From NCBI GenBank assembly GCA_030536315.1, contig JAUNQF010000003.1, positions 1 to 64,000 on the forward strand: a stretch of DNA of 64,000 bases, read 5' to 3'. The position numbers and the translations under genes were made by a program. The notes under the pieces are model-generated. The model searched no databases. It was not told where the DNA came from and was given only the letters and a program-made list of their open reading frames with translations. Of this stretch, positions 12,487 to 38,614 are shown in pieces (positions within the stretch are counted from its first letter, which is position 1; every line of letters starts with the position of its first letter). This DNA is from Coriobacteriia bacterium. GTDB lineage: Bacteria > Actinomycetota > Coriobacteriia > Coriobacteriales > Eggerthellaceae.

Positions 12487-14190
12487 TTACTTTGCAAGTG
12501 GATCTGGGAAGTGGCATTCTTGACCATCAAAGTATGTGCATACTGGATTAATAGACCCAATTTCGTTATCTGGAATTGAGAAAATATCTTTATCCAGCAC
12601 AACAAGGCAAGCACGTTTGCCAACTTCGATAGAGCCAATTTTATCCAGCCATCTCATGCGCTCTGCATTTGTATAAGTGCAAGCATGAATGCTTTCTTCA
12701 ACGCTAAATTTAGCGCTGTCGGGCAATCGCCCGTTTGGATATTTTTTAGTGTCCGTTGCGGCAATCACACCGCATCCTGGGTTGATTGCAGTTTTTGCAA
12801 TTTGCATCCCTATAAACAAAGGCACGTGTGACAATTCTTGATTTGTTGTATTGTCCGAAGAATAGCCATACTTCACGCCATCTTTTCTAAATTGAGAAAA
12901 GTCAAAGTAAGTTTTCATACGTTCTTCGCCCATAAAGGAAAGCGTGGCTTCGGGCATGTCTCCAAACCAATGAGCGGTTAAATCGGCTCGCACACCAAGC
13001 TTTTTAAAGCGCTTGGCATCATCAGGGTGCATAATTTCAAGGTGCGCTAAAGTAACTTCGATGCATCAATCATCGCCGCAAGCTTTTTGAGCCGCTTCGA
13101 TAGCATCCAACATACGACGAAGAGTTCCATCGCAAATAATATGAGCGTGAAAATCAAGACGCTCTTTATTTAGGCGAATAAGAACATCGCGCATCTCGTC
13201 AACTTCGAAGTTACAGCTACCGCAATTTTTACCTTCGGGGTCATTTGAAAATGGCACCAAGCTAAGCACATCTCCAGCTTCGTTAGAACCATCACCAAAA
13301 AACTTTACAGTACGAATGCGGATGTGATCGGACTCATAATTTTTTTGCCATTTTCTAGCCTGAGTGATAGTGTTCTCAATATCGCCACAATTGTCAAGCA
13401 ACACGGTAACATCAAAATACATGCATAACTTTCCTTGTTTGTCGAAGTTATACAAGAACTCAACATCAGCATCGTCCTTGACCGCAGCTTCCATACATCC
13501 AATATCGCCATGGTGTCGCATGATATTTAAAATTTCTGCGGAGTTATTTTCTGTCATGGTAAGTTCAGGACGCCACCCGAGAGCCTCAAAAACTCCCTCA
13601 TCGCCATTTTGAAAGGTTTGAAAAGCCACACCTGTGTATTCGCCATTTTCATCCTTAAAAAATTCTTGTCCGGAAATAGGCGAAACAGAGTGGGGGACGC
13701 CATTTTCGTCCTTTAGCATATCCAGCGCCATGCTGTTATATAAGCACCCGTGGCCTGAATCGTCATTAACGCGCGCAGGTCGATCCGATATTACTTTGTC
13801 CAGGTCTTCTTTTCTGGGGCCCTTATCACCGAATGTTTCAGCGTGATACAAGTTGTATACAAAGTAAGGCTTTTCTTCTTTTGGGTGCTCTTTTGCGGCC
13901 TTTGCGATATTTTCAAAAAGTTTATCTTTGTCGTATTCATCTGGACCATAAATTATTCACGAAGATTTAGAAATAAGAACAGGGTGATTATGCCCATCTA
14001 TAAGTCCCGGAAGAACAGTTTTTTCTTTAAGGTCAACAGTTTCATAATCCTTCGCGTTGAATTTAGCATATTTAATAACTTCCTCGTTAGTTCCCACGCA
14101 AACGAAGTTTTTGCCTTCGATAGCAACAGCTTCGGCTCATGGTTTGCGAGTGTCTTCGGTATAAAATTTTCCGTTGATTAAAATTTTCAT
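12487..14190 (-). CDS. YtcJ-like metal-dependent amidohydrolase (copy 1)
   Basis: Amidohydrolase-superfamily enzyme of 567 aa, resembling YtcJ/Amidohydro_3 proteins that hydrolyse exocyclic amide or ester bonds; substrate unknown. The metal-binding HxH appears as LPGLIDGHNHP near residue 60. Further His residues occur in FHAHIICDGTLRRML, and a conserved YGSSDNT strand lies late in the barrel. It is the third and last of three tandem paralogues transcribed leftwards, with the MATE exporter 18 bases downstream. In-frame TGAs, for example at about 13063 (complement), are Trp. Confidence 0.85.
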
Positions 14191-14201
14191 TTATATCCTT
14201 C

Positions 14202-15890
14202 CTAAAATTGTTTTTGACCATTTATATATAAATGCTTTGGAGCAATTCCGCAAGTCTTTGCGTCCTTCATTGCCTCTTCGTTAGTAAAATCTATGTCATA
14301 AACAATAAAATCTGCTTGCTTTCCAGCCTCTAAACTTCCCACCGTATCTTCTTCCTTAAGTACATAGGCAGAATTAGTGGTCAGGCATTTAAGCGCATCG
14401 TAAGGCTGCATTTTTTCTTTGATGTTTCGAGGCCTCATGTTAGGGTCTTCGAAGAGGTCCACCTTGTTTACCGCTGCATATAAAATTCGGCTTATTTCAA
14501 CATCTGGGTCCCCATCCGAATGAAATGCCATGGTTGCGCCCGTATCTAAATAAGATTGTAATGAACTTATGTCTTCATATCCGTTGCCGTCAAGATCTTT
14601 GTTGGTCTCTGGGTCGCCATAAATAGTTTTCTCTGCTCCAATTTCGGCAGGAACAAATGTATATCAATGTGGTGCGGTAACAGGTGTTACATTCAATTTT
14701 CCGAAGCGTGGGACATCATCTTGATGCACGCAATTTAGGTGAGATACAGCGTTTCTAAAATCAGGATTTTTGCAACCTGCTTGAGCTTTTTCTAAAACAT
14801 CCAAAGCGTATCTTGCAGCACCAGAACCTATAGCATGCAATTCCACAGACATCCCATTTTCATTTGCCTTACGAATGATTTGCGCAAGCTCATCAATTCT
14901 GTCATAGTTTCATCTTTTGCATCCAGAATAAGGCTGGCCTTTAAATTTGTAATTTTTGTAAGGCTCCAAAGTCCAACAACTCATTCCGCCATTAACGCCA
15001 TCTAAGAAAATTTTGAAACCAATTATTTTAAATGCATCGCAATTGTATTTTTTAGCGTATTTAATTGCCTTGTCAATTTCCTTTAGCGGCTCTTCACAAG
15101 TTTCGAAGATTTGGTAGTAAGCGCGAACTTTAATTTTTAACTTGCCTTCTTGCGCAAGCTGTCCCATGGCAGTTACCATGGGGTTTGCGCCTTCGTCAAT
15201 TCCGCAATCTCCAACCATTGAATAACCATGATTTATGTGGTCCTGTTGGATTTCAGTAAATATTGCTTTGGCTTCGTCTAAATCAACCGGAATTGAACCA
15301 GCCACAGCATAATGCGGCGATTCCTTTAAACACCCAATGGGCTCTCCGTTATCATCGCAAAGAACTAAGTCTTCGCCAAACTTTTTAACTAAATCTTTAT
15401 TAACAGAAAACTTATCCATAGCAGCCTTGTTCAGTCAGCTCAAATGACCATTTACATCCATAACAACAATTGGCTTATCAAACTTTTTGCCGTCAATTTC
15501 AATATTGTCAAGCATTTCATGTGTGGGGAAGCCACGATTTGAATCTGGAGTAAAACCATAAGCCTTATAAATTTCTTTGCCAGGATTTTCCTCAATATAT
15601 TTTGTAAGCTCTTCTATGTTTTTTTCGTACGAATCTCCATAATCGAAGCTGGGGCCTCCCGCCATAATTGTAGAGAGCAAACCAATATGACTATGGACAT
15701 CTATAAAACCAGGGTAAATTGTTTTACCGCTGAAGTCTATAACTTCGGTGTTTGAATCTATTAAATTTTGGGCATCGTCCTTAGAGCCAACAAATGTGAT
15801 TTTTTCACCATTAATAATCATAGCTTCGGCTCTTGATTTGTCTTTGTCCATGGTTACAATATTTCCATAAATTACTTTTGTCGAATTCAT
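14202..15890 (-). CDS. YtcJ-like metal-dependent amidohydrolase (copy 2)
   Basis: A 562-aa paralogue of the flanking genes. MNSTKVIYGNIVTMDKD starts the typical small beta domain; YPGFIDVHSHIGL carries the HxH metal ligands near residue 65. Interior conserved blocks include VGDCGIDEG, SVELHAIGSGAARYALD (a His ligand) and MAFHSDGDPDVE (Asp ligand of the barrel). Several TGA codons read as Trp join it: W is found, for example, before KRDYDR near 14910 and before YTFVPAE near 14664. Eleven bases separate it from copy 1. Substrate unknown. Confidence 0.84.
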
Positions 15891-15921
15891 AAATGAACCT
15901 CTCTTAAATTATTAAGAAAAC

Positions 15922-17637
15922 TTATGCCTTATAGCTTGTTTCGCCCTTAAATAAAGTTTCTTTTACCTTCATTAAACAAATATCTTCCGGCGCAACTTGT
16001 TCGATATCTTTATCTAAACATACAAGCTCGGCAGATTTTCCAACTTCAATAGAGCCTGTAATATCTTCGCGGCAAAATTGATATGCAACGTTGATTGTCC
16101 ATCCCTTAATTGCCTCTTTAAGTGTAGTTGCCTCTTCCTTGTTTGTTACGGGAGCATCTTTATATGTTTCATAATGCATATCTGTCTTTGGATATTTTCT
16201 TGTCATGGCTATGGTTATGCCTTCTAAAGCATCGCTCATTGTAACGGGGTAGTCTGAGCCATATGCACATCTAATTCCAGCACGAGCAAGGCTCCCATTA
16301 GGATAAATTCCTTTAAAGCGCTCCGGTCCAACCATAGATTGAAAAGTAGGGCAATCCTCAACATTAGCACCTTCTCACTGAGGTTGAATGCTTCCTATAA
16401 TGCCATTTTCAGCCATACGTGCTGTGTCTTCATCACTAATGAAGAAAATGTGAGCAATAATGTCTCGAAGTTTTCCACTTTCGTCATACTTGCGAGCGTT
16501 AAGCATGCTATTGATTGTTTCACGAGTAGCTAAGTCACCATAGCTATGAACATGAATGTTGTAGCCGGCCTTTTTTACGTCTTCCATAGACTTTTTATAG
16601 TGCTCAATGTCTCACAGGAGGCCATCTGCCGAACCTGAGCCCTTTGGCATTCCAGACATCTCACAAAATTCATCGGTGTAAGGCTCAATCATGGCAACGT
16701 CTTCGTCCATAAAATACTTAACGGTATCAACTTTTAAGATGTCGTCAACATCGAAGGCGCCTCGCTCTGCAATTGCCTTTTTAATATCTTCGTCTCTTGT
16801 TTCATCCTTACAATTGTAAACGCCATCAATTCGAACTTTAAATTCTCCGTCTTGGGCCATTTTCTTAAGTACCTTATATGGGGCTTCGGTGCGCAGGCAA
16901 TCAGATAGGTAAGTGAAGCCTCGCGAAGCAAAATAATCTTGTGCATTAAGCATAGCTTGTCTATTTTGCTCGTCAGAATGATTAAAGTCAGGGATTTTAC
17001 TACAAACATCCACAATAGCACTGGTTTCTTGAATCATGCCATTTGGGGTGCCGTCTTCTTCGCGCTCTATTAGATCTCCATGTTCTTTGTAATCTTTAGT
17101 AATTCCTGCATGTTCAAGAGCTTTGGTGTTTAGCAAGCAGCGATGTCCACAGCTACTATCTAAAGCCACAGGTCTGTCCGCAATAACAGCATCTATGTCG
17201 TGGCGTGTAAGCTTTTTAACAATTCCGCCTAAGTTGCCTTCAAACCATTCTCTTTCCCAGCCACTGCCGTGAATAACCTTGTCATTTGGGTGGCTATCGG
17301 CAAATTCCTTTACGCGGCCTTGTATAATTTTGATAATGTCATCTGGTGTTTGGTTGTTGGTATCTGTTACCAGATCATTAAGATCTACAACACCAAAGCG
17401 CCTAATAGACACGGTAAAGTGCATATGAGCATCTCCAAATCCTGGAAGAATGCTTCCGCCTTCGCAATCTGTAACTTGGGTATCTGGGCCAATTCAATTT
17501 TCGGCCTCTTCGTTAGTCCCGATAAACACAAATTTTCCATCTTTAATGCCTAAAGCTTCGGCACGTGTTTCTGTATCGTCCAAAGCTATAGAGTATACCT
17601 TGGCATTTTTAAAGATTCTGTCTGCTTTATTTTCCAT
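15922..17637 (-). CDS. YtcJ-like metal-dependent amidohydrolase (copy 3, first gene of the cluster)
   Basis: A 571-aa Amidohydro_3/YtcJ-type enzyme. The HxH metal site is GDAHMHF near residue 70, a conserved His block reads YNIHVHSYGDLATRETI, and the late barrel motif is CAYGSDYPV. TGAs at 17490, 16609 and 16375 (complement) are Trp. It is the first gene of the leftward cluster (copy 3, copy 2, copy 1, MATE, priA). It is divergent from the ABC transporter gene across a 129-base intergenic region that must hold both promoters. The three copies have clearly diverged, which suggests different substrates. Confidence 0.86.
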
Positions 17638-23520: not shown

Positions 23521-26500
23521 ATGTTACACGCAATGATTCAGGAAATTAGCAACATATTAAGAGGTTCCAATGAGCTTAAGCCTTATTACAGTAAGCTTGA
23601 TAACGGTGAGGATGCTTCGCTTGCCGTTGTTACTTCGGCAAGACCTTTAGTTGTGGCAACCGATTTTATGACGAAGAAGAAATCGACTTTTGTTGTTGTA
23701 GCAGGCGAGAAGAATGCTAAAGTTTTTGCAAACGAGATAAATTCTTTCATTCCGGGGACAGGGTTGCGTTTAGCAGGTAATACAGAGGCGTTGTGGTGCC
23801 TTCGCTCTGGCAAGCCTAAAATTGTGGTTGCTTCGGCTTCGGAGGTTTTAAGAAAAATACCCGACACGGACATTGCTAAGCTTAAGCCCTTAACCTTGAA
23901 AATTGGAATCGAGATTGAGCGTAACACTCTTTTAGAAAAACTTAAAAGCTTTGGCTATACGCGCCTTGCGGTGTTGGATGGTCCTGGAACATTTAGTGTT
24001 AAGGGTGGCACCATTGACATTTTCCCAGCGCAGTTAAGATATCCCGTTCGAATTGATTTTTTTGGTGACGAAGTCGAGGACATCCGCCGCATCGTGCAAA
24101 CCACTGGGCAAACCATTAATTCGCTGAAAAGTGTTGAAATCTTTTTTGCAAAGTCAAGTGAAGAGTTTGAAAAAACAATCCAGCTGCAAGATATGTTAAA
24201 TAAAAACACCGTCGTATATTTTGATGAACCGCGTGGTGTGCTTGACGACATGCGAAATTATTATGACAGTTTGGGTAAGACAATTAAGATGTCTAAAGCA
24301 GACAGGAAAACCTTTTACATGAATCCGCTTGATGTTAACATCGCTAATAATCAAAATGTTTCACTTGTTTCAATTATGCAACGAGGTATTAATCCAGATG
24401 CGAAGTTGACCTTGAAGCGCCCGCCTCGTCATAAAAGTATCGATGAGTTGCGAGATGCTTTGCCAGGTTATAAGTTGATTACTGAACTGCCTGTTAACAT
24501 GACTTATTTAATTCCAGACGGCAAGCTTGCTATTGTATGTAAGCAAGCGCCGAAGTATTTGGCTGGAACAAAGGGCGAATACTTCGATGTTAGCAAGCTT
24601 GATTTTGTGGACATTACAAAAATCACCTTTCCGTACAAACCAGGTGATTATGTTGTTCATTCATTTTATGGAATTGCGCTTTTTAAGGATATTGTTAAGC
24701 GCGAGATTGCCGGAAGCATTCGCGATTATTTGCTACTGGAATATGCTGAAAAAGATAAGCTTTATGTACCAATTGAGCAGTTTGGTCGCATAACAAAGTA
24801 TGTTGGTCCTCAAGGGACGAAGCCAAAAGTTACCCGTCTTGGTACTGCCGATTGGTCAAAAGTTATGAGCAGAGCTCGTGTTGCAACGCGTCGTATGGCC
24901 TTCGATTTGGTTGATGTTTATAGTCGTCGTGCGCTTGCAAAAGGACATGCCTTCGCGGCCGATAATGCCAAGCAAAAAAAGATGGAAGCCGATTTTCCAT
25001 ACCTTGAAACCGGCGATCAAATGAAGGCAATTAATGATGTTAAGTCGGACATGCATTCTCAAAAGCCAATGGATAGGTTAATTTGTGGAGACGTTGGATT
25101 TGGTAAGACCGAAGTTGCTCTTCGTGCTGCTTTTAAATGCGCCCAGGACAAAATGCAAGTTATGTTTTTGTGCCCTACAACTATTTTGGCGCAGCAACAC
25201 TACACAACTTTTTATAAGCGTTTGGATAGATATGGCATTAAGGTTGAAGTTTTAAGTAGGTTTAAATCTGCGAAGGAAAGCAAGCAAATTGCCGAAGATT
25301 TTGCAAATGGCAAGCTTGATGTTTTAATTGGAACGCACAGATTGCTGTCGCGCGATATTAATCCTAAAAATTTAGGCCTAATTATTATCGACGAAGAACA
25401 GCGCTTCGGAGTTGGACATAAAGAGCAGCTGAAAAATTTCCGCGATAGCGTCGATGTACTTACACTCACGGCCACGCCAATTCCTCGTACTATGCAAATG
25501 GCAACTTCGGGCGTTCGTGATATGAGCATTATTAACACGCCGCCAGACAGTAGAAAGGCTGTTGAAGTTCACGTTGGTGAGTGAGATAGCGATATTGTAA
25601 GTGAAGCGATTCGCCGAGAAATTGAGCGTGGTGGTCAGGTCTACTATATTAGTAACAGGGTTCGCACAATTAATGATGCTGCTAATAGGGTTGGGCTTTC
25701 CGCTGGCGAGGCCAGGATTGGTGTTGTGCATGGTCGTATGAAAAAAGATCAAATTGAAACTGTTATGGAAGATTTTAGTGCAGGGAAGTTTGATGTTTTG
25801 GTCTCAACCACAATTATTGAAAACGGAATTGACAATCCAAACACCAACACGCTTATCATCGAAGACAGCGAGCGGCTTGGCCTCTCACAAATGTATCAAC
25901 TTAAAGGTCGCGTTGGTCGAAGCGTTGAGCAAGCCTACGCGTATTTTATGGTTCGCAATCCTAATATTTTGACCCAAGAAAGTGTTGAGAGGCTGAAAGC
26001 CATTGATGAGTTTACGGATCTTGGAAGTGGCATGCAAATTGCAATGCGAGATCTTGAAATTAGGGGAGCTGGAAATTTCTTGGGTGCTGAACAAAGTGGA
26101 AACTTAAGTCATGTTGGTTTTGACCTGTTCGCTCAAATGCTTAAAAGTGCTGTTGAGAACACTCAAAACTACGAGTCTTATAACAAGCAAGATACTCAAG
26201 ATTACCTTGAGCCTTCAATTTCAGACGTGGCAGTAAATATTCCAGGAAGCGCATTTCTCTCAAACGAAGTAATTCCTGAAATTGAAAAACGAGTTATGTG
26301 ATATAGAAGATTTTCTTCTGCTAGGTCTTTAGAAGAAGTCTTCGCTCTCGAAAAAATGCTTCGCAGGGAGTACAAAGATCTAAACGAGACTTGCGAAAAT
26401 TTCATATTTAAAAATGCAATTGCTGCTGTTGGTTTAAAGCAAGGTTTCAACTTAATTTCTGTTATTCGAGGCAATCTTGTTTTGGAAGGCAAGAAATTAG

Positions 26501-26652
26501 CCCCAACAATGGTTGCGCAGCTTCGTCAAATTGAGGGAAGTTACTATGAAAGAAAATATAAAACCACCATTCCTCTTGACAGGATTATCGATAAGGATCC
26601 AGACCTTCTCTTTGGGCAAATTTTCGACTTTCTAATCAACTGAGATTTTTAG
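23521..26652 (+). CDS. mfd: Mfd transcription-repair coupling factor
   Basis: DNA translocase that removes stalled RNA polymerase and recruits UvrA; 1043 aa, about 100 shorter than E. coli Mfd, with the reduction in the N-terminal UvrB-like part. A CarD-like RNAP-interaction domain (PGDYVVHSFYGIALF, about residue 375) precedes the helicase with Walker A GDVGFGKTEVALRAAFK (about 523), DEEQRFGVGHKE and GRVGRSVEQAYAY. The C-terminal TRCF domain completes it. TGA is read through at residues 688, 927 and 1041; the last makes the protein end in Trp-Asp-Phe before TAG. A second ATG (23533) is possible. Confidence 0.95.
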
Positions 26653-26653
26653 T

Positions 26654-26727
26654 TGGCTGGAGTGGAAGGAATCGAACCCTCACATACGGCACCAGAAACC
26701 GCTGTCCTACCGTTAGACGACACTCCA
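26654..26727 (-). tRNA. tRNA-Gln (anticodon CTG)
   Basis: 74-base cloverleaf including an encoded CCA. Acceptor stem TGGAGTG/CACTCCA, discriminator G, T-loop GGTTCGATTCC, anticodon loop TTCTGGT with CTG in the middle. The anticodon stem has two G-U pairs. It lies one base after the mfd stop, on the opposite strand. Confidence 0.93.
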
Positions 26728-26749: not shown

Positions 26750-28072
26750 TTATAGACAGAAACAAGGATTAATGCAAGCAGTATCTGTATAAGTTAGATT
26801 ATGCTTTTCAGGGTTTCCATATGCATCAAGAGTCATTACGTTATATAGATTGTCAGGGTATACAGTTCGCTCTAGTACTCTATCTTGATTAAAACCTGCA
26901 TCTTCAGGATATCCGTTAAACAGACCAACTCATTTTTCAACAAATTTTATTGCGCTTTCAAAAATTGTAGGATATTTAATTTCTTTATTGTTAAAAATTC
27001 AGTCATATCCTTCGTCAGTAACGCTTGAAAGAACAGGTCCAGGTCATACTTGATCTTCTACTGGCACACTTTTTATTGGGTCCCAATATATTATTTTATG
27101 CCAGTTTGACAACCAATACCAATTGTCATGATCTATGTATTCATATTTCGAACCTTCAGTTGGCCAACCCTTATATCCTTTACCACCAAGCTCAGTGTAG
27201 CTTAGCAAGAATAAACTATCTGTGCTATCAGATGTTGAATTATTATATTTTACTCAGTCGTCATCGTCTCCAAATGCCAATGCGTATTTTTTCTTGACAT
27301 TAGTAATTTTATCCGTTAATTCTTTTGGAAAGCATTTAAAAATTTCTCCATTTTCTTGTAGCTTTTCACGAATTGATGAAGATTTCCAATTTACTGCATA
27401 GTCTTGATTTGCATTACCATAAGCATATGAGATTGGCAACGTATTTACTGGTGCAAACGTTAATCCAGCTGGCTTTCCATCAGATTTTAGATCGTGACAA
27501 ATACCAATAATTCGGTAATGAAGCGTTTCTGTAACAAGGCCTTTTTTGAATTCTACATCTTTTGTGTCGCCAGCATCTGCCATTGTCTTAAATGTTTCGT
27601 AGTATTCCGAAGTACTTTTTTTTGTTGTGGGGTTTCATTTTTGGCTTATATCTTCAGCAATATATTTTAAATCTTCTCAAGTGTATTCATTAATACATGT
27701 GTTTTCAGTTCAGATAGCAGGAATGGTCGTGTCTTTTGATAAATTTCCTCTGTCCGGAGTATCCCAGTAATTAAACTTAAAACCAAGTCTGGAAATTTTG
27801 GTTTTTTCTCATTCTTTCATGATTGTATCGAAGTTTGTCCCTTCGTCAAAGTTCTTTGTGTATAAACTGCTTTTTTCAGTCCATCCGCTTGGTTTAGCAC
27901 TGTCAAGCACTCCGCCTGCTAAATCTACAGAAACTGTGTAAGATTGATTTTGTTCACTTTCAACTTCACTTGCATTTGCCTTGTTAAGAACAAGTGAAAA
28001 AAGTACAGCCGCAATACAGATTGTCGAGATAAGCGAAATTACTAGAATCTTATTTAGCTTAGTTATTTTCAT
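26750..28072 (-). CDS. Secreted protein with InlB-type beta-repeat and DUF6273-like domain
   Basis: A 440-aa exported protein. The signal peptide (MKITKLNKILVISLISTICI onwards) ends near ANA at about residue 35. Residues about 45-120 resemble an InlB B-repeat/Listeria-Bacteroides repeat: a VDLAGGVLD strand, FDEGTNFDTIMKEW, then IPAIW. The central and C-terminal part resembles DUF6273 (NWKSSSIREKL, FLLSYTELGGKGY), a domain common in Clostridia and relatives with no known activity. Many Trp are TGA. The start at 28072 follows GTGAGGA. The upstream SusD-like gene ends 2 bases before this start, so the pair is an operon and likely acts together at the cell surface. Confidence 0.72.
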
Positions 28073-28073
28073 A

Positions 28074-29798
28074 TTAGTCCTCACTTTCTACTCAGCCAGG
28101 ATTTTGTCAGTATTGTCAGTCTACGCCAAGCAGCAGCATCGTATCTTGTGGTATTTGTAAGAATGATTTATTATTTATATTTTCTGGCTTATAGGCCTCA
28201 AGGTTAACATCTGGCGTTCCTGCTTCCATAACTTTAACATCCTTCGAGTATTTAATTATGTATTCTGAATGTGGCCAACCGTTTACTTTGCAAAAAAAGA
28301 TATAGTACCAATAACTATTTGCTTCAAATGCAGTTTCTTTTTGTATGAAACTATACAACTCTTCTATAGTCCCCACAGAAATAGGTGACAATCCGGCTCT
28401 TGCCCTGAGTTTTTCTAATGTATAAAAGGCACCTTGTATATCTCCTTTTGCTGCAAGACAAAATGCCTTCATTATAAATATATCAGCGTACCTGAATATT
28501 TTATAATCTTGAGAATAGTTAGCTGGGGTTCCGTCCGCCAAACATAGCGGAGTGTATTTTCCAGGGAAAAATTCAGTACATTCATGCCAATCTAATATGG
28601 CTATAGGTCATTTTTCATCTTCCGTCATATGACTTTTTTCTGCCTCGATAATGCTTGTTGCGTATCTTGCATCAGAAGAGTCTGACTGAAACTCTTTTAC
28701 GAATATTGGAGATACGTTAAGCATGCCTTGTCCTTCGCCTGTACCTCGGTAACTCATGTTTCGGAGCCCCATATTTTGATATCATTTGCATGATTCCGGA
28801 TTTAATTCCTTGTCGTTAAATGTTATTGAGAAAATTGTCTCTCTGTCTTTATCGCCGGTTAAATATCCATCAAGTAGACTATCTAAAGTTCTTCCACCAC
28901 CCTGTTCGACATTATTTCTTGCGCATGCAGATGCTCAAAGACTTGCGTAATCAGGTAATATCTCATAATCTCCACTGGCAATTACGCTATCCGTGTATTT
29001 TACAACATGATCTAAAGCACTATTATCAAGATAACTTTGAGATCATGCATACATATACAAATGAGCGAGCAATGCCTCGGCTATGCACCTACTTGAAGCT
29101 CTATGGTTGTTATGTGCTGAAATTTTTTGTGGGGGTAGAATACCCCTGGCTTTTTCTAAGTCTTCTATAAGCATTTTAATAGTTTCTTCTGGGTTTCGCT
29201 TTTCTTGCATGACAGAACAAATCTCTTCGTATTGATAAAATTGAGTGCCGTCTAAATCATCTCTTAACATTGGAATTGGACCAAAAAGCTTCATTAAATT
29301 TAAGTAACAAAGTGAGCGTATTGTTTTAGCTTCATATTCATATTTTGCTGCAATTTCTGGGTCTTCAATACTGTATGATTCAGTAATTACTTTATTACAT
29401 TTAAGGATAGTGGCATAAAAATTATTTCATTCAGGTTCGAATAAATTTTTGTTATTGTCTGTAATATTTAAGTCAAGACGGTCAATGATACGCGCTTGCT
29501 TTCCGTCCGTGGTACCTCCACTTGCAAAAGTGAGTGGGTCTAAAAGTTCAGAAATCATATGCATACCAATACCGTCGTTATAAGCATGTGAAAGATATCT
29601 ATAGACCTCTTTCATGTCTTCTTCCAGAGCTTCTTCACTATTATTCGTATACCAGACGTTTCCTTCTTGGTTATCAGCTCAGGCTTTTAAAGTTCCAGTT
29701 TGTGACAAAGCAAAAGCCATAATCGATAAACTTGCAACTAACGAAATCGCAATAGCAACAATTTTTTTATGTGCGTTTAATCAAGACACAATGTTCAT
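28074..29798 (-). CDS. SusD/RagB-family secreted protein
   Basis: A 574-aa protein with the SusD/RagB fold signature. WNNFYATILKCNKVI near residue 120 and RSLCYLNLMKLFGPIPML near 160 are typical. So are the HNNHRASSRCIAEALLAHLY helix and, near 480, FRYADIFIMKAFCLAAKGD followed by LEKLRARAGL. SusD proteins bind glycans and pair with SusC porins in Bacteroidota outer membranes. Here there is a signal peptide with a cleavage-like AWA-D site but no lipobox Cys, and no SusC gene nearby. Several conserved Trp, including that of WNNFY, are TGA, so the gene has adapted to this code. RBS AAAGAGGGG. Transfer from Bacteroidota is an inference. Confidence 0.82.
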
Positions 29799-29872
29799 TT
29801 TCCCCTCTTTCCTTAAATAGCATGTATGTTTATTATATACAAATGTAGTGTTTGTCGTTCTTTTATTTTATA

Positions 29873-29901
29873 TTGCCAATTCGATTTTATGTTATCATAA
29901 T
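29873..29901 (+). promoter_or_regulatory. Probable promoter of the fructose PTS gene
   Basis: TTGCCA (29873-29878), 17-base spacer, CATAAT (29896-29901), 20 bases before the gene start. It lies in the divergent region shared with the susD-like gene. Confidence 0.55.
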
Positions 29902-29920
29902 TATCTAACAAAGGAGGATT

Positions 29921-32020
29921 ATGAAGATTGTTGATTTGTTGGATAAGCGAAGTGTTAAATTTGGAGTTGATGCTAAATCTAAAGAAGATGCAATTCGTCA
30001 AATTTGTCATTTAATGGCGGAATCAGGAAAAATTGATGATGTCGAAAATTACATTAGCGGCGTTCTTGACCGCGAAGACATCGCAACCACCGGTGTTGGA
30101 AATTTCATCGCAATGCCGCACTGCCAAGGTGATTTTATCAACAGTGCTGGTCTTGCTGTTATGAAGTTTAACGAGGGTGTAAATTGAGATTCGCTTGATG
30201 GTGAGCCTGTTAAACTTGCAATTTTGATTGCTGCTCCTCAAACATCTGATAATTTGCATTTGGATGTTTTGGCAAAGCTTTCTGGAATGCTGATGCATGA
30301 CGATTTTCGCGAAGGCTTGCTCAACGCAAAAGATGAAGCTGAATTCTACCAACGAATTGTTGATGCTGACAAGGAAGAGGAAGAAAAAGCTGCCGAAGAC
30401 AACTCAAACATAAACCCAGAAGGACCATTAATTTTAGCTGTAACAGCTTGTCCTACTGGCGTTGCTCATACATATATGGCTAAGGAAGCCCTTGAAACCA
30501 AAGCCAAGGAACTTAACATTAACCTTAAGGTTGAAACTGATGGTTCTGGTGGTATCAAAAATGAGTTGACCGATGAAGACATAAAGAAGGCTAAAGCAAT
30601 TATTGTTGCTGCAGATGCTTTCGTCCAAATGGGTCGATTCAACGGCAAGCCAGTCATTGAAGTTCCAGTTTCAAAGGCGATTGGCTCTCCTGATGTTTTA
30701 TTAAATTCTGCTGTAAATGATAATATTCCAAAATATAAGGCGGGGGCTTCGGAGGTATTTCAAATTGGCGCCGGCGATGGCAGAATGGAAGGCTCAAGTA
30801 AGGCCCACAATGTTTACAAGCACTTGATGTCTGGTATTTCTCACATGATTCCGTTCGTTGTTGCTGGTGGTATTTTGCTTGCCTTCGCATACATGATCGA
30901 TGGTCTTTGCGGATCTCCTAAAGACGGGCTTGAAATCGACGGTATTTATTACGCTTTTGGTTCAATTAATGAAGCTGCGAGAGTCTTGCATGACTTAGGA
31001 GCGACCTTTGGTCTTGGATTGATGTTACCTGTTCTTGGCGGGTTTATAGCTTACTCAATTGCAGGCAAACCTGGACTTGTTTCTGGATTTGTTGGAAGTT
31101 TCGCGGCAACGCAAGGCATGTATTCGGCACTTTATTATTATTCGCTACTGGTTTATGGTATTGATGCAGATAGCACATTGCAACTTGCAACCTCAAGTGC
31201 TGGTTTTATTGGGGCAATTGCTGCTGGTTTTATAGCTGGTTATTTTGTCAAGTTTTTGCAAAGAAAGTTTTCGAATTTTAGCAGAACGCTTGAGCCCGTG
31301 CGCGATATGTTAATAATCCCACTTATTTCAACAGCTTTTGTAGGTGCATGTATGTTTTTCTTGAATGCGCCATTCGGCCTGCTTAATATTTATCTTGGAA
31401 TTGGACTCCAAGTTTTAAAAGATGCAAATTTGATACTGCTCCTTGCTGCTCTCGTTTCTGCTTTGATGGCAACCGATATGGGAGGTCCAATCAACAAGGC
31501 AACACATTACTTCGTGCTAAGTCTTGTTACAACTTCTCTTGGTTCAAGTGGAACTCCAGAAATGCAAACGCTTGCCTGTCAGTTGATGGCTGCAAACATC
31601 GTTGGAATTATGGTTCCTCCAGTTGGTATTGCAATTGCAACTTGGCTTTTCCCTCAAAAGTTCACAGCAGCTGACAGAGTACCTTCGCTTGCAAACTTCT
31701 TCATTGGTCTCTCTGGTATTACCGAAGGCGCAATCCCATATGTTGCAATTAGCCCTGTAATTTTCATTTTCTGCTGCATGACAGGTGCTGCCGTTGGTGG
31801 CGTAATAAGCATGCTTTTGGGCATGGAAGCTATCGCTCCCGAAGGTGGAACAATCTCTTATCTTGTAATGGGCGCATCATGCTGGAAGGGTATTGTTGCG
31901 ACCTTCGCAGGTGCTTTTGTAACAGCAATTTTGATTGGTTTGCTCCGAAAAGATGTCGAGCCGCAATATGCTAAGTTAGGCAAGTGGAAAGGCATCCCAA
32001 TCGGACGCAAATTTAAATAA
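29921..32020 (+). CDS. Fructose-family PTS permease, fused EIIA-EIIB-EIIC
   Basis: Phosphotransferase-system transporter that imports and phosphorylates a fructose-type sugar; 699 aa. The EIIA domain has its phospho-His in IAMPHCQ (about residue 65), the EIIB domain its phospho-Cys in ACPTGVAHTYMA (about 178), and the EIIC membrane domain starts near 290 (HMIPFVVAGGILLAFAY). TGA at residue 89 falls in VNWDSLDGEPV, a Trp conserved in EIIA domains. AGGAGG precedes the ATG. No fructose-1-phosphate kinase or regulator is adjacent. The exact sugar is unproven. Confidence 0.92.
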
Positions 32021-37222: not shown

Positions 37223-38614
37223 ATGATGAGATTTAATATGGTCAAAAATTACAAAATTCTTAAAATGTTACTTATATGCTCAACATTATTTTTATTAGTT
37301 GACGCTTTGATTTTGTTGGCTGGGTGTAACAATGGGAGATATGCAAATATTTTAAGCTATGGAGCAGAATCTGGAATTGCTTCGTATGATAATTCTGAAT
37401 CTATCCAAAAAGCGATTGATCAAGTAAATGAGTCCGGAGGGGGAAGAGTTGTCATACCGGCTGGTGATTTCTATACGCATCCAATTGAGTTAAAGTCTGG
37501 TGTCGAGCTTCATTTAGAATCGGGAGCAAAACTTATAGGCGTTGACAATATTGAGGCTTATACAAAATTGAAATATAAAAAGAACCCATCGTTAATTTTT
37601 GCCGATGGGCAAGAAAATATTTCTGTAACAGGTACAGGAACAATTGATGGTCAGGGCGGAGCACCTACTTTTCAGGTTAAAGGTGACCCAGGTGGTCGAC
37701 CTATGATTATATTATTCCATGACTGTAAAGACGTTACAGTTACAGACGTAACTTTAACAAATTCAGCTCATTGAGTGCAATTTTATACGGCATGTGAAAG
37801 AGTTAGGATAAGAGGTATAAAAGTTAACTCTCATGCTAATTTAAATAATGATGGCATTGACATTGGATCTAAAGATGTTGTTGTAAGCGATTGTGTTATT
37901 GATAGTGACGATGATGCCATCTGCTTTAAAGGCGATGAACTTTGCGAGAATGTAACTGTTACAAACTGTGTTGCTTCTACAAACTGCAATGGAATTAAAT
38001 TTGGTACTGCTTCCACAAAAGGATATCGCAATGTTAAAGTAAACAATATAAAGCTAAGTCATGCAAGCGAGGATAATCATAGACAGTGGTCTACAAAATA
38101 TCCAGGAATAACTGCACCTGTTACAATTATTTCAGGCATCGCAATAGAAGTTGTGGGTGGAGGTATCGCTGAGAATATAGACATAAATAATGTCTCGATG
38201 ACTGATGTTCAGACACCTATTTTTATTCGTCAAGGAAAACGTTATGATGAAAGTAAGGCTCCAAACACATATTTAAAAGACATTAAAATAAGTAATGTTA
38301 AGGCCGTAAGCGAGAGCATGATGACTAGCTCTATAACTGGTGTTCCTGGTCTTTATCCTGAGAATATAACTCTTACAAATATTGATATAACTGCGCCAGG
38401 AGGTGGCACTGCTGATATGGGGTCTATAGTCGTTCCTGAAGCTGAAAAAGAATATCCAGAAAACAGAATCCTAGGCACAATTATGCCAGCAAGTGGTTTA
38501 TATATAAGGCATGCCAACAATATTACACTATCAAATGTTAATTTTCATTTTCGCGAACCTGACGATCGTCCTCTAATCATCAAAGATGATTGTACAAATA
38601 TTAACTATTTGTAA
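37223..38614 (+). CDS. GH28-like right-handed beta-helix lipoprotein
   Basis: A 463-aa exported protein. A hydrophobic N-terminus ends in the lipobox LLAGC (about residue 34), so it is probably membrane-tethered. The body is a pectate-lyase-type beta-helix with polygalacturonase features: NNDGIDI, DSDDDAICFKG and NCNGIKFGT, spaced as in GH28 family enzymes. The canonical GHG motif is replaced by NGI. TGA at 37772 (SAHWVQF) is Trp. RBS AGGAGG; ATG at 37223 or 37226. It likely acts on a uronic-acid-containing or similar glycan outside the cell. Its 3' end overlaps the convergent hydrolase by 14 bases. Confidence 0.8.

Follow-up and report, generated by a model that had tools for sequence, protein, structure and literature searches.

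Within the window, by which is meant the whole analysed stretch of 64,000 nucleotides, the minus strand carries at positions 28074-29798 a single frame of 574 codons, ten of them in-frame TGA, that encodes a SusD/RagB-like protein, and the plus strand of the same segment is non-coding and full of stops. SusD is normally a nutrient-capture protein of the Bacteroidota, paired with the outer-membrane transporter SusC. The original prediction was right that a SusD gene exists here, on what is now seen to be the minus strand, but it missed both a coupled downstream gene and a second copy in another contig. The features that enter the argument are the following.

23521-26652, plus: mfd-like host core gene near the SusD operon, with three TGA codons for Trp (named from sequence)
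26654-26727, minus: tRNA-Gln(CTG), just past the SusD operon, part of the host backbone
26750-28072, minus: downstream coupled gene, with a Sec signal, DUF6273, an InlB-like segment (recognized by eye) and eight TGA codons
28074-29798, minus: SusD/RagB-like protein of 574 amino acids, with TGA read as Trp, a Sec signal without lipobox and a C-terminal QNPGW
29799-29920, no strand: divergent intergenic region, which holds the Shine-Dalgarno-like AGAGGGGAAAATG before the SusD start
29921-32020, plus: fructose-family PTS EIIABC-like permease, divergent from SusD and about 120 bases away (family named from sequence)
37223-38614, plus: GH28-like polygalacturonase lipoprotein with lipobox LLAGC, outside the SusD operon

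The downstream gene probably starts with ATG at 28072, one base past the SusD stop, the listed open reading frame beginning with GTG at 28084. Since DUF6273 is common in the order, where it is present in 32 of 61 genomes, this partner of SusD looks native. The PTS permease is a context gene, tied to SusD only by position, and the GH28-like lipoprotein, 7.4 kb from SusD, is a possible partner enzyme. The best plasmid relatives of the latter are from Bacteroidota (37-40% identity), and it may therefore be another acquired gene. Elsewhere in the window, positions 41670-62000 hold a large gene set with few TGA codons that resembles a pdu/eut-type cluster for a diol/glycerol dehydratase and a microcompartment, and a tandem run of three YtcJ-like amidohydrolases, each about 565 amino acids long, lies on the minus strand at 12487-17637.

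Family membership and the second copy

The assignment to the SusD/RagB family was confirmed in several ways, beginning with the Pfam check that had been proposed for it, in which the protein scores significantly against both PF07980 (38.2 bits, Pfam cut-off 23.1) and PF14322 (32.8 bits, cut-off 27). When phmmer is run against the PDB, 6gcz is matched with an E value of 4e-15 together with many further SusD entries, and a profile search of the PDB gives matches to 28 distinct sequences, nearly all of them named SusD. When copy 1 and its paralogue are aligned and compared by hhalign with an alignment of thirteen Bacteroidota SusDs, the match is at 100% with an E value of 7.7e-55 over 441 columns. 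Judged by these sequence comparisons, the homology to the SusD superfamily is real and not a chance match. A two-sequence AlphaFold model is mostly helical but poor, with a pLDDT of 37.

The second copy (P0003) is found at L006:5553-7286, on contig C10 of the same assembly, and scores higher than the first, with 61.1 bits for PF07980 and 54.6 bits for PF14322. Its 39-kb contig also contains a ribosomal-protein operon and secY, gene names being read from sequence. In pairwise alignment it is 31% identical to copy 1 (P0001) and 20-26% identical to other relatives, and in a tree of 21 rows the two copies group with support 88/95, a value that comes with a long-branch warning. The copies are probably paralogues, and the preferred reading, short of proof, is a single acquisition with a later duplication.

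As had been predicted, copy 1 begins with a plain Sec signal, cleaved between LKAWA and DNQE when the site is placed by eye. The signal region of each copy is free of Cys, so that no lipoprotein anchor for signal peptidase II is seen in either, and at the C terminus, which ends in QNPGW(VESED), there is neither a transmembrane segment nor an LPXTG-like sorting signal. The check for cell-wall anchoring thus gives a divided answer, with no anchor on SusD itself and sorting-signal-like segments in the neighbours of copy 2. These neighbours are P0004, a giant repeat protein of the CarboxypepD_reg/SpaA type that copy 2 closely follows, and, downstream, P0005, with InlB-type repeats and a C-terminal AQTGD motif, transmembrane segment and RKK, followed by a giant DUF285/Flg_new protein. 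Each SusD copy is probably co-transcribed with surface proteins of native type, in what appear to be operons. Among class genomes sampled, SusD stands beside InlB-repeat/DUF6273 proteins only in this one. P0004 was considered as a decayed SusC and rejected, since PF13620 and SpaA give the best matches to its CarboxypepD_reg part and neither a plug nor a barrel is seen; a domain common to P0002 and P0004/P0005, suspected by eye, was also dropped, with a weak blastp match (E 0.01) and nothing from phmmer.

A side observation concerns the giant surface proteins of this genome, several of which carry a module resembling a sorting signal at the N terminus, where a QTGD-type motif, a transmembrane segment and Lys/Arg residues are followed by a second signal or transmembrane segment.

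L006:12253-19998, L078:1568-9841, L081:5325-20000, L079:15372-20000, L006:1798-5544 and L082:3610-6054 (minus): giant proteins with the N-terminal QTGD module

The same type of motif occupies its usual C-terminal place in P0005 and in L082:5933-17338, and the N-terminal modules possibly reflect an unusual use of sortase.

Genetic code and cell envelope of the host

The Trp residues of copy 1 are encoded by ten TGA and four TGG codons. TGA encodes the conserved Trp of the W..Y helix in both copies (W124, with W126 as its counterpart in copy 2), and likewise the Trp of the C-terminal NPGW, in agreement with the claim that conserved Trp is written as TGA. In ClpB (VVSIwTGIP), Mfd and PriA, as in many further genes across the window, TGA likewise stands at Trp positions, and in 35 other window genes the ratio of TGA to TGG is 47 to 48. 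In GC, GC3 and codon usage the SusD gene falls inside the range of its neighbours, and its TGA codons show it to be adapted to this recoded host.

Release factor 2 was not found above the model's cut-off in this genome, and 56 of 61 genomes pass. The only match here reaches 272.5 bits against a cut-off of 370, about what relatives give for their second and lower-scoring match, and is read as RF1. RF2 was also not found in G013, a 97% complete genome of the same family, which may therefore share the reassignment of UGA. A tRNA with anticodon UCA lies on contig C4 (L056:1498-1593, minus); it is called SeC by ARAGORN, is matched in Rfam by RF00005 only, and has A1-U72 and G73 as in tRNA-Trp together with a long variable arm. 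This tRNA is a candidate decoder of UGA, and a standard tRNA-Trp with anticodon CCA is also present in the genome. In the open-access literature no report was found of UGA as Trp in Eggerthellaceae, or of SusD in a monoderm. A stretch that had been taken for 16S (L042) contained no rRNA and gave no match.

Turning to the envelope, a search of the 1.09-Mb assembly with PF00593 finds no TonB receptor or SusC, and none adjoins SusD, as had been predicted for the neighbourhood. A search with PF01103 finds no Omp85/BamA in the genome, one sortase is present, and the primary sigma factor scores best with mycobacterial SigA (407 bits), the best non-actinobacterial entries scoring lower. The sigma-factor result and the sizes of related genomes suggest a host in the Actinomycetota, probably in the Coriobacteriia, whereas a scan with Mfd matched only a distant member of the Bacillota. 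Each absence is weak when taken alone, because the genome is 75% complete and SusC or Omp85 could sit in the lost quarter. The outcome of this envelope check, proposed together with the prediction, is that the host is probably single-membraned (monoderm).

Origin and possible role of the SusD proteins

Among 400 genomes of the class, in 154 genera, only this one has a match to PF07980, and in a sample of the phylum the sole other SusD match is in G700. The G700 gene (L077, G700:C134) belongs to an intact SusC/SusD/GH3 cluster in standard code with Bacteroidota-like genes, likely a case of binning contamination. Relatives on plasmids, at 21-33% identity, belong to Bacteroidota (Parabacteroides, Persicobacter, Hymenobacter, Spirosoma and others) and in one case to Gemmatimonadota, and every plasmid relative opened with annotation adjoins a TonB-dependent receptor. 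A lipoprotein-type Cys where the signal peptide ends is seen in 19 of 19 collected relatives, as read from printed N termini (a simple lipobox pattern fits only some of the 19), and in neither of the two copies here. Scans for related loci, with P0001 for genome contigs and with A1 and four Bacteroidota-type SusDs for viral contigs, gave no relatives.

We consider it fairly probable that SusD was acquired long ago from a Bacteroidota or Bacteroidota-like donor, and re-used as a secreted binder of ligands at the surface. A sortase-bearing host lineage, reading TGA as Trp, would have taken up the gene; SusC would have been lost or never received, and SusD kept and then duplicated. Both copies would have lost the lipoprotein Cys and been exported by an ordinary Sec signal. 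The DUF6273/InlB-like protein would be the partner at copy 1; at copy 2 this part would fall to the giant proteins of the CarboxypepD_reg and InlB-repeat types, in which segments resembling sorting signals occur. The TPR-type SusD domain may then serve as an extracellular module that binds a glycan or peptide and, held near the cell surface by a signal anchor or by the operon partners, may concentrate substrate, either for attachment or for hydrolysis and uptake of small sugars, with a PTS permease lying divergently at copy 1. A lid function over a TonB-dependent transporter would not be its role. Against the account count the incompleteness of the genome, the long branches joined by the grouping of the two copies, the existence of SusD-like proteins that bind no glycan (PMC9599597), and a search for PF01547 that gave no sugar ABC binding protein for the uptake step.

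It is possible, though in our view rather unlikely, that the SusD copies are parts of adhesins only, joined to giant InlB-repeat proteins and binding host or microbial glycans for attachment and not for nutrition. The position of copy 2 between P0004 and P0005, the latter with its C-terminal sorting signal, speaks for such a role, as does a PF01547 search that found no sugar ABC binding protein in the genome, whereas the GH28 lipoprotein and the PTS permease near copy 1 are compatible with nutrition.

We regard it as unlikely that the two copies stem from two separate transfers, a reading made possible by the fact that their grouping joins long branches and consistent with their low mutual identity. 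Against it stand the support for that grouping, the lack of a lipobox in both, and the observation that every relative found is somewhat less similar to the copies than they are to one another.

That the host has an outer membrane and a SusC outside the assembly, with SusD as an ordinary transporter lid, is highly improbable: the incomplete assembly would allow it, but neither PF00593 nor Omp85 is found, a sortase is present, neither SusD copy has a lipobox, SusC adjoins SusD in the annotated Bacteroidota relatives and not here, and other sampled genomes of the class have no SusD. The least tenable reading, that the SusD genes are Bacteroidota DNA binned into the assembly, is suggested by the otherwise Bacteroidota distribution of the family and by the intact SusC/SusD/GH cluster of G700, which looks exactly so, but it is very unlikely and largely refuted, because ClpB, Mfd and PriA share the TGA code that the SusD genes also need and RF2 was not found, and it is further opposed by the location of the SusD genes inside contigs of 111 kb and 39 kb with rpoD, mfd and ribosomal proteins, and by the missing SusC and lipobox.

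To return to acquisition and re-use, the current view is that SusD cannot be separated from its outer-membrane transporter, SusC. If the account is true, the SusD lid alone is useful, its binding role is separable from the transport role, and the gene has passed two barriers, that of the cell envelope and that of the genetic code. The TGA codons, moreover, let the usual objection of contamination be tested from sequence alone. With more reserve, and as a somewhat doubtful extension, we suggest that the secreted SusD modules and the giant InlB-repeat proteins may together be a new SusC-free device for glycan capture or adhesion, in a monoderm with UGA reassigned to Trp.

Comparison with known systems

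The proteins described here resemble the SusD/RagB family in having both Pfam parts in order, the W..Y helix, the RYAD, RARAG and C-terminal QNPGW motifs, and PDB relatives such as 6gcz, 3otn and 7kv2. The Bacteroidota SusD is described as a lipoprotein lid of SusC that works by a pedal-bin mechanism (PMC7782687, PMC7618045), and some SusD-like proteins are said to bind no glycans (PMC9599597). Unlike the Bacteroidota proteins, both copies here have TGA as Trp, DUF6273/InlB-type neighbours, no lipoprotein Cys and no SusC neighbour, and their host has no detected outer-membrane genes. In this assembly, 75% complete, the marks of a SusCD importer, namely an adjoining SusC, a lipoprotein anchor and a host with Omp85/BamA, were all not found, and the pedal-bin mechanism is unlikely, unless its parts lie in the missing quarter of the genome, because lid anchor and barrel are both missing.

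The lowest E value among plasmid matches to copy 2 is that of Parabacteroides distasonis WP_009276809.1 (L058; 25.5% identity, E 1e-31), the alignment with which extends into the long insert region. Unlike the genes here, its gene comes immediately after that of a TonB-dependent receptor, and its signal peptide contains the Cys. RagAB of Porphyromonas gingivalis, a peptide-type SusCD with a lid protein of four TPRs according to PMC11817032, has the family name in common with the present copies, and uses a TonB-dependent barrel of a kind not found here. The partner genes, finally, are of types also known from Gram-positive gut bacteria, namely InlB-repeat/DUF6273 surface proteins.
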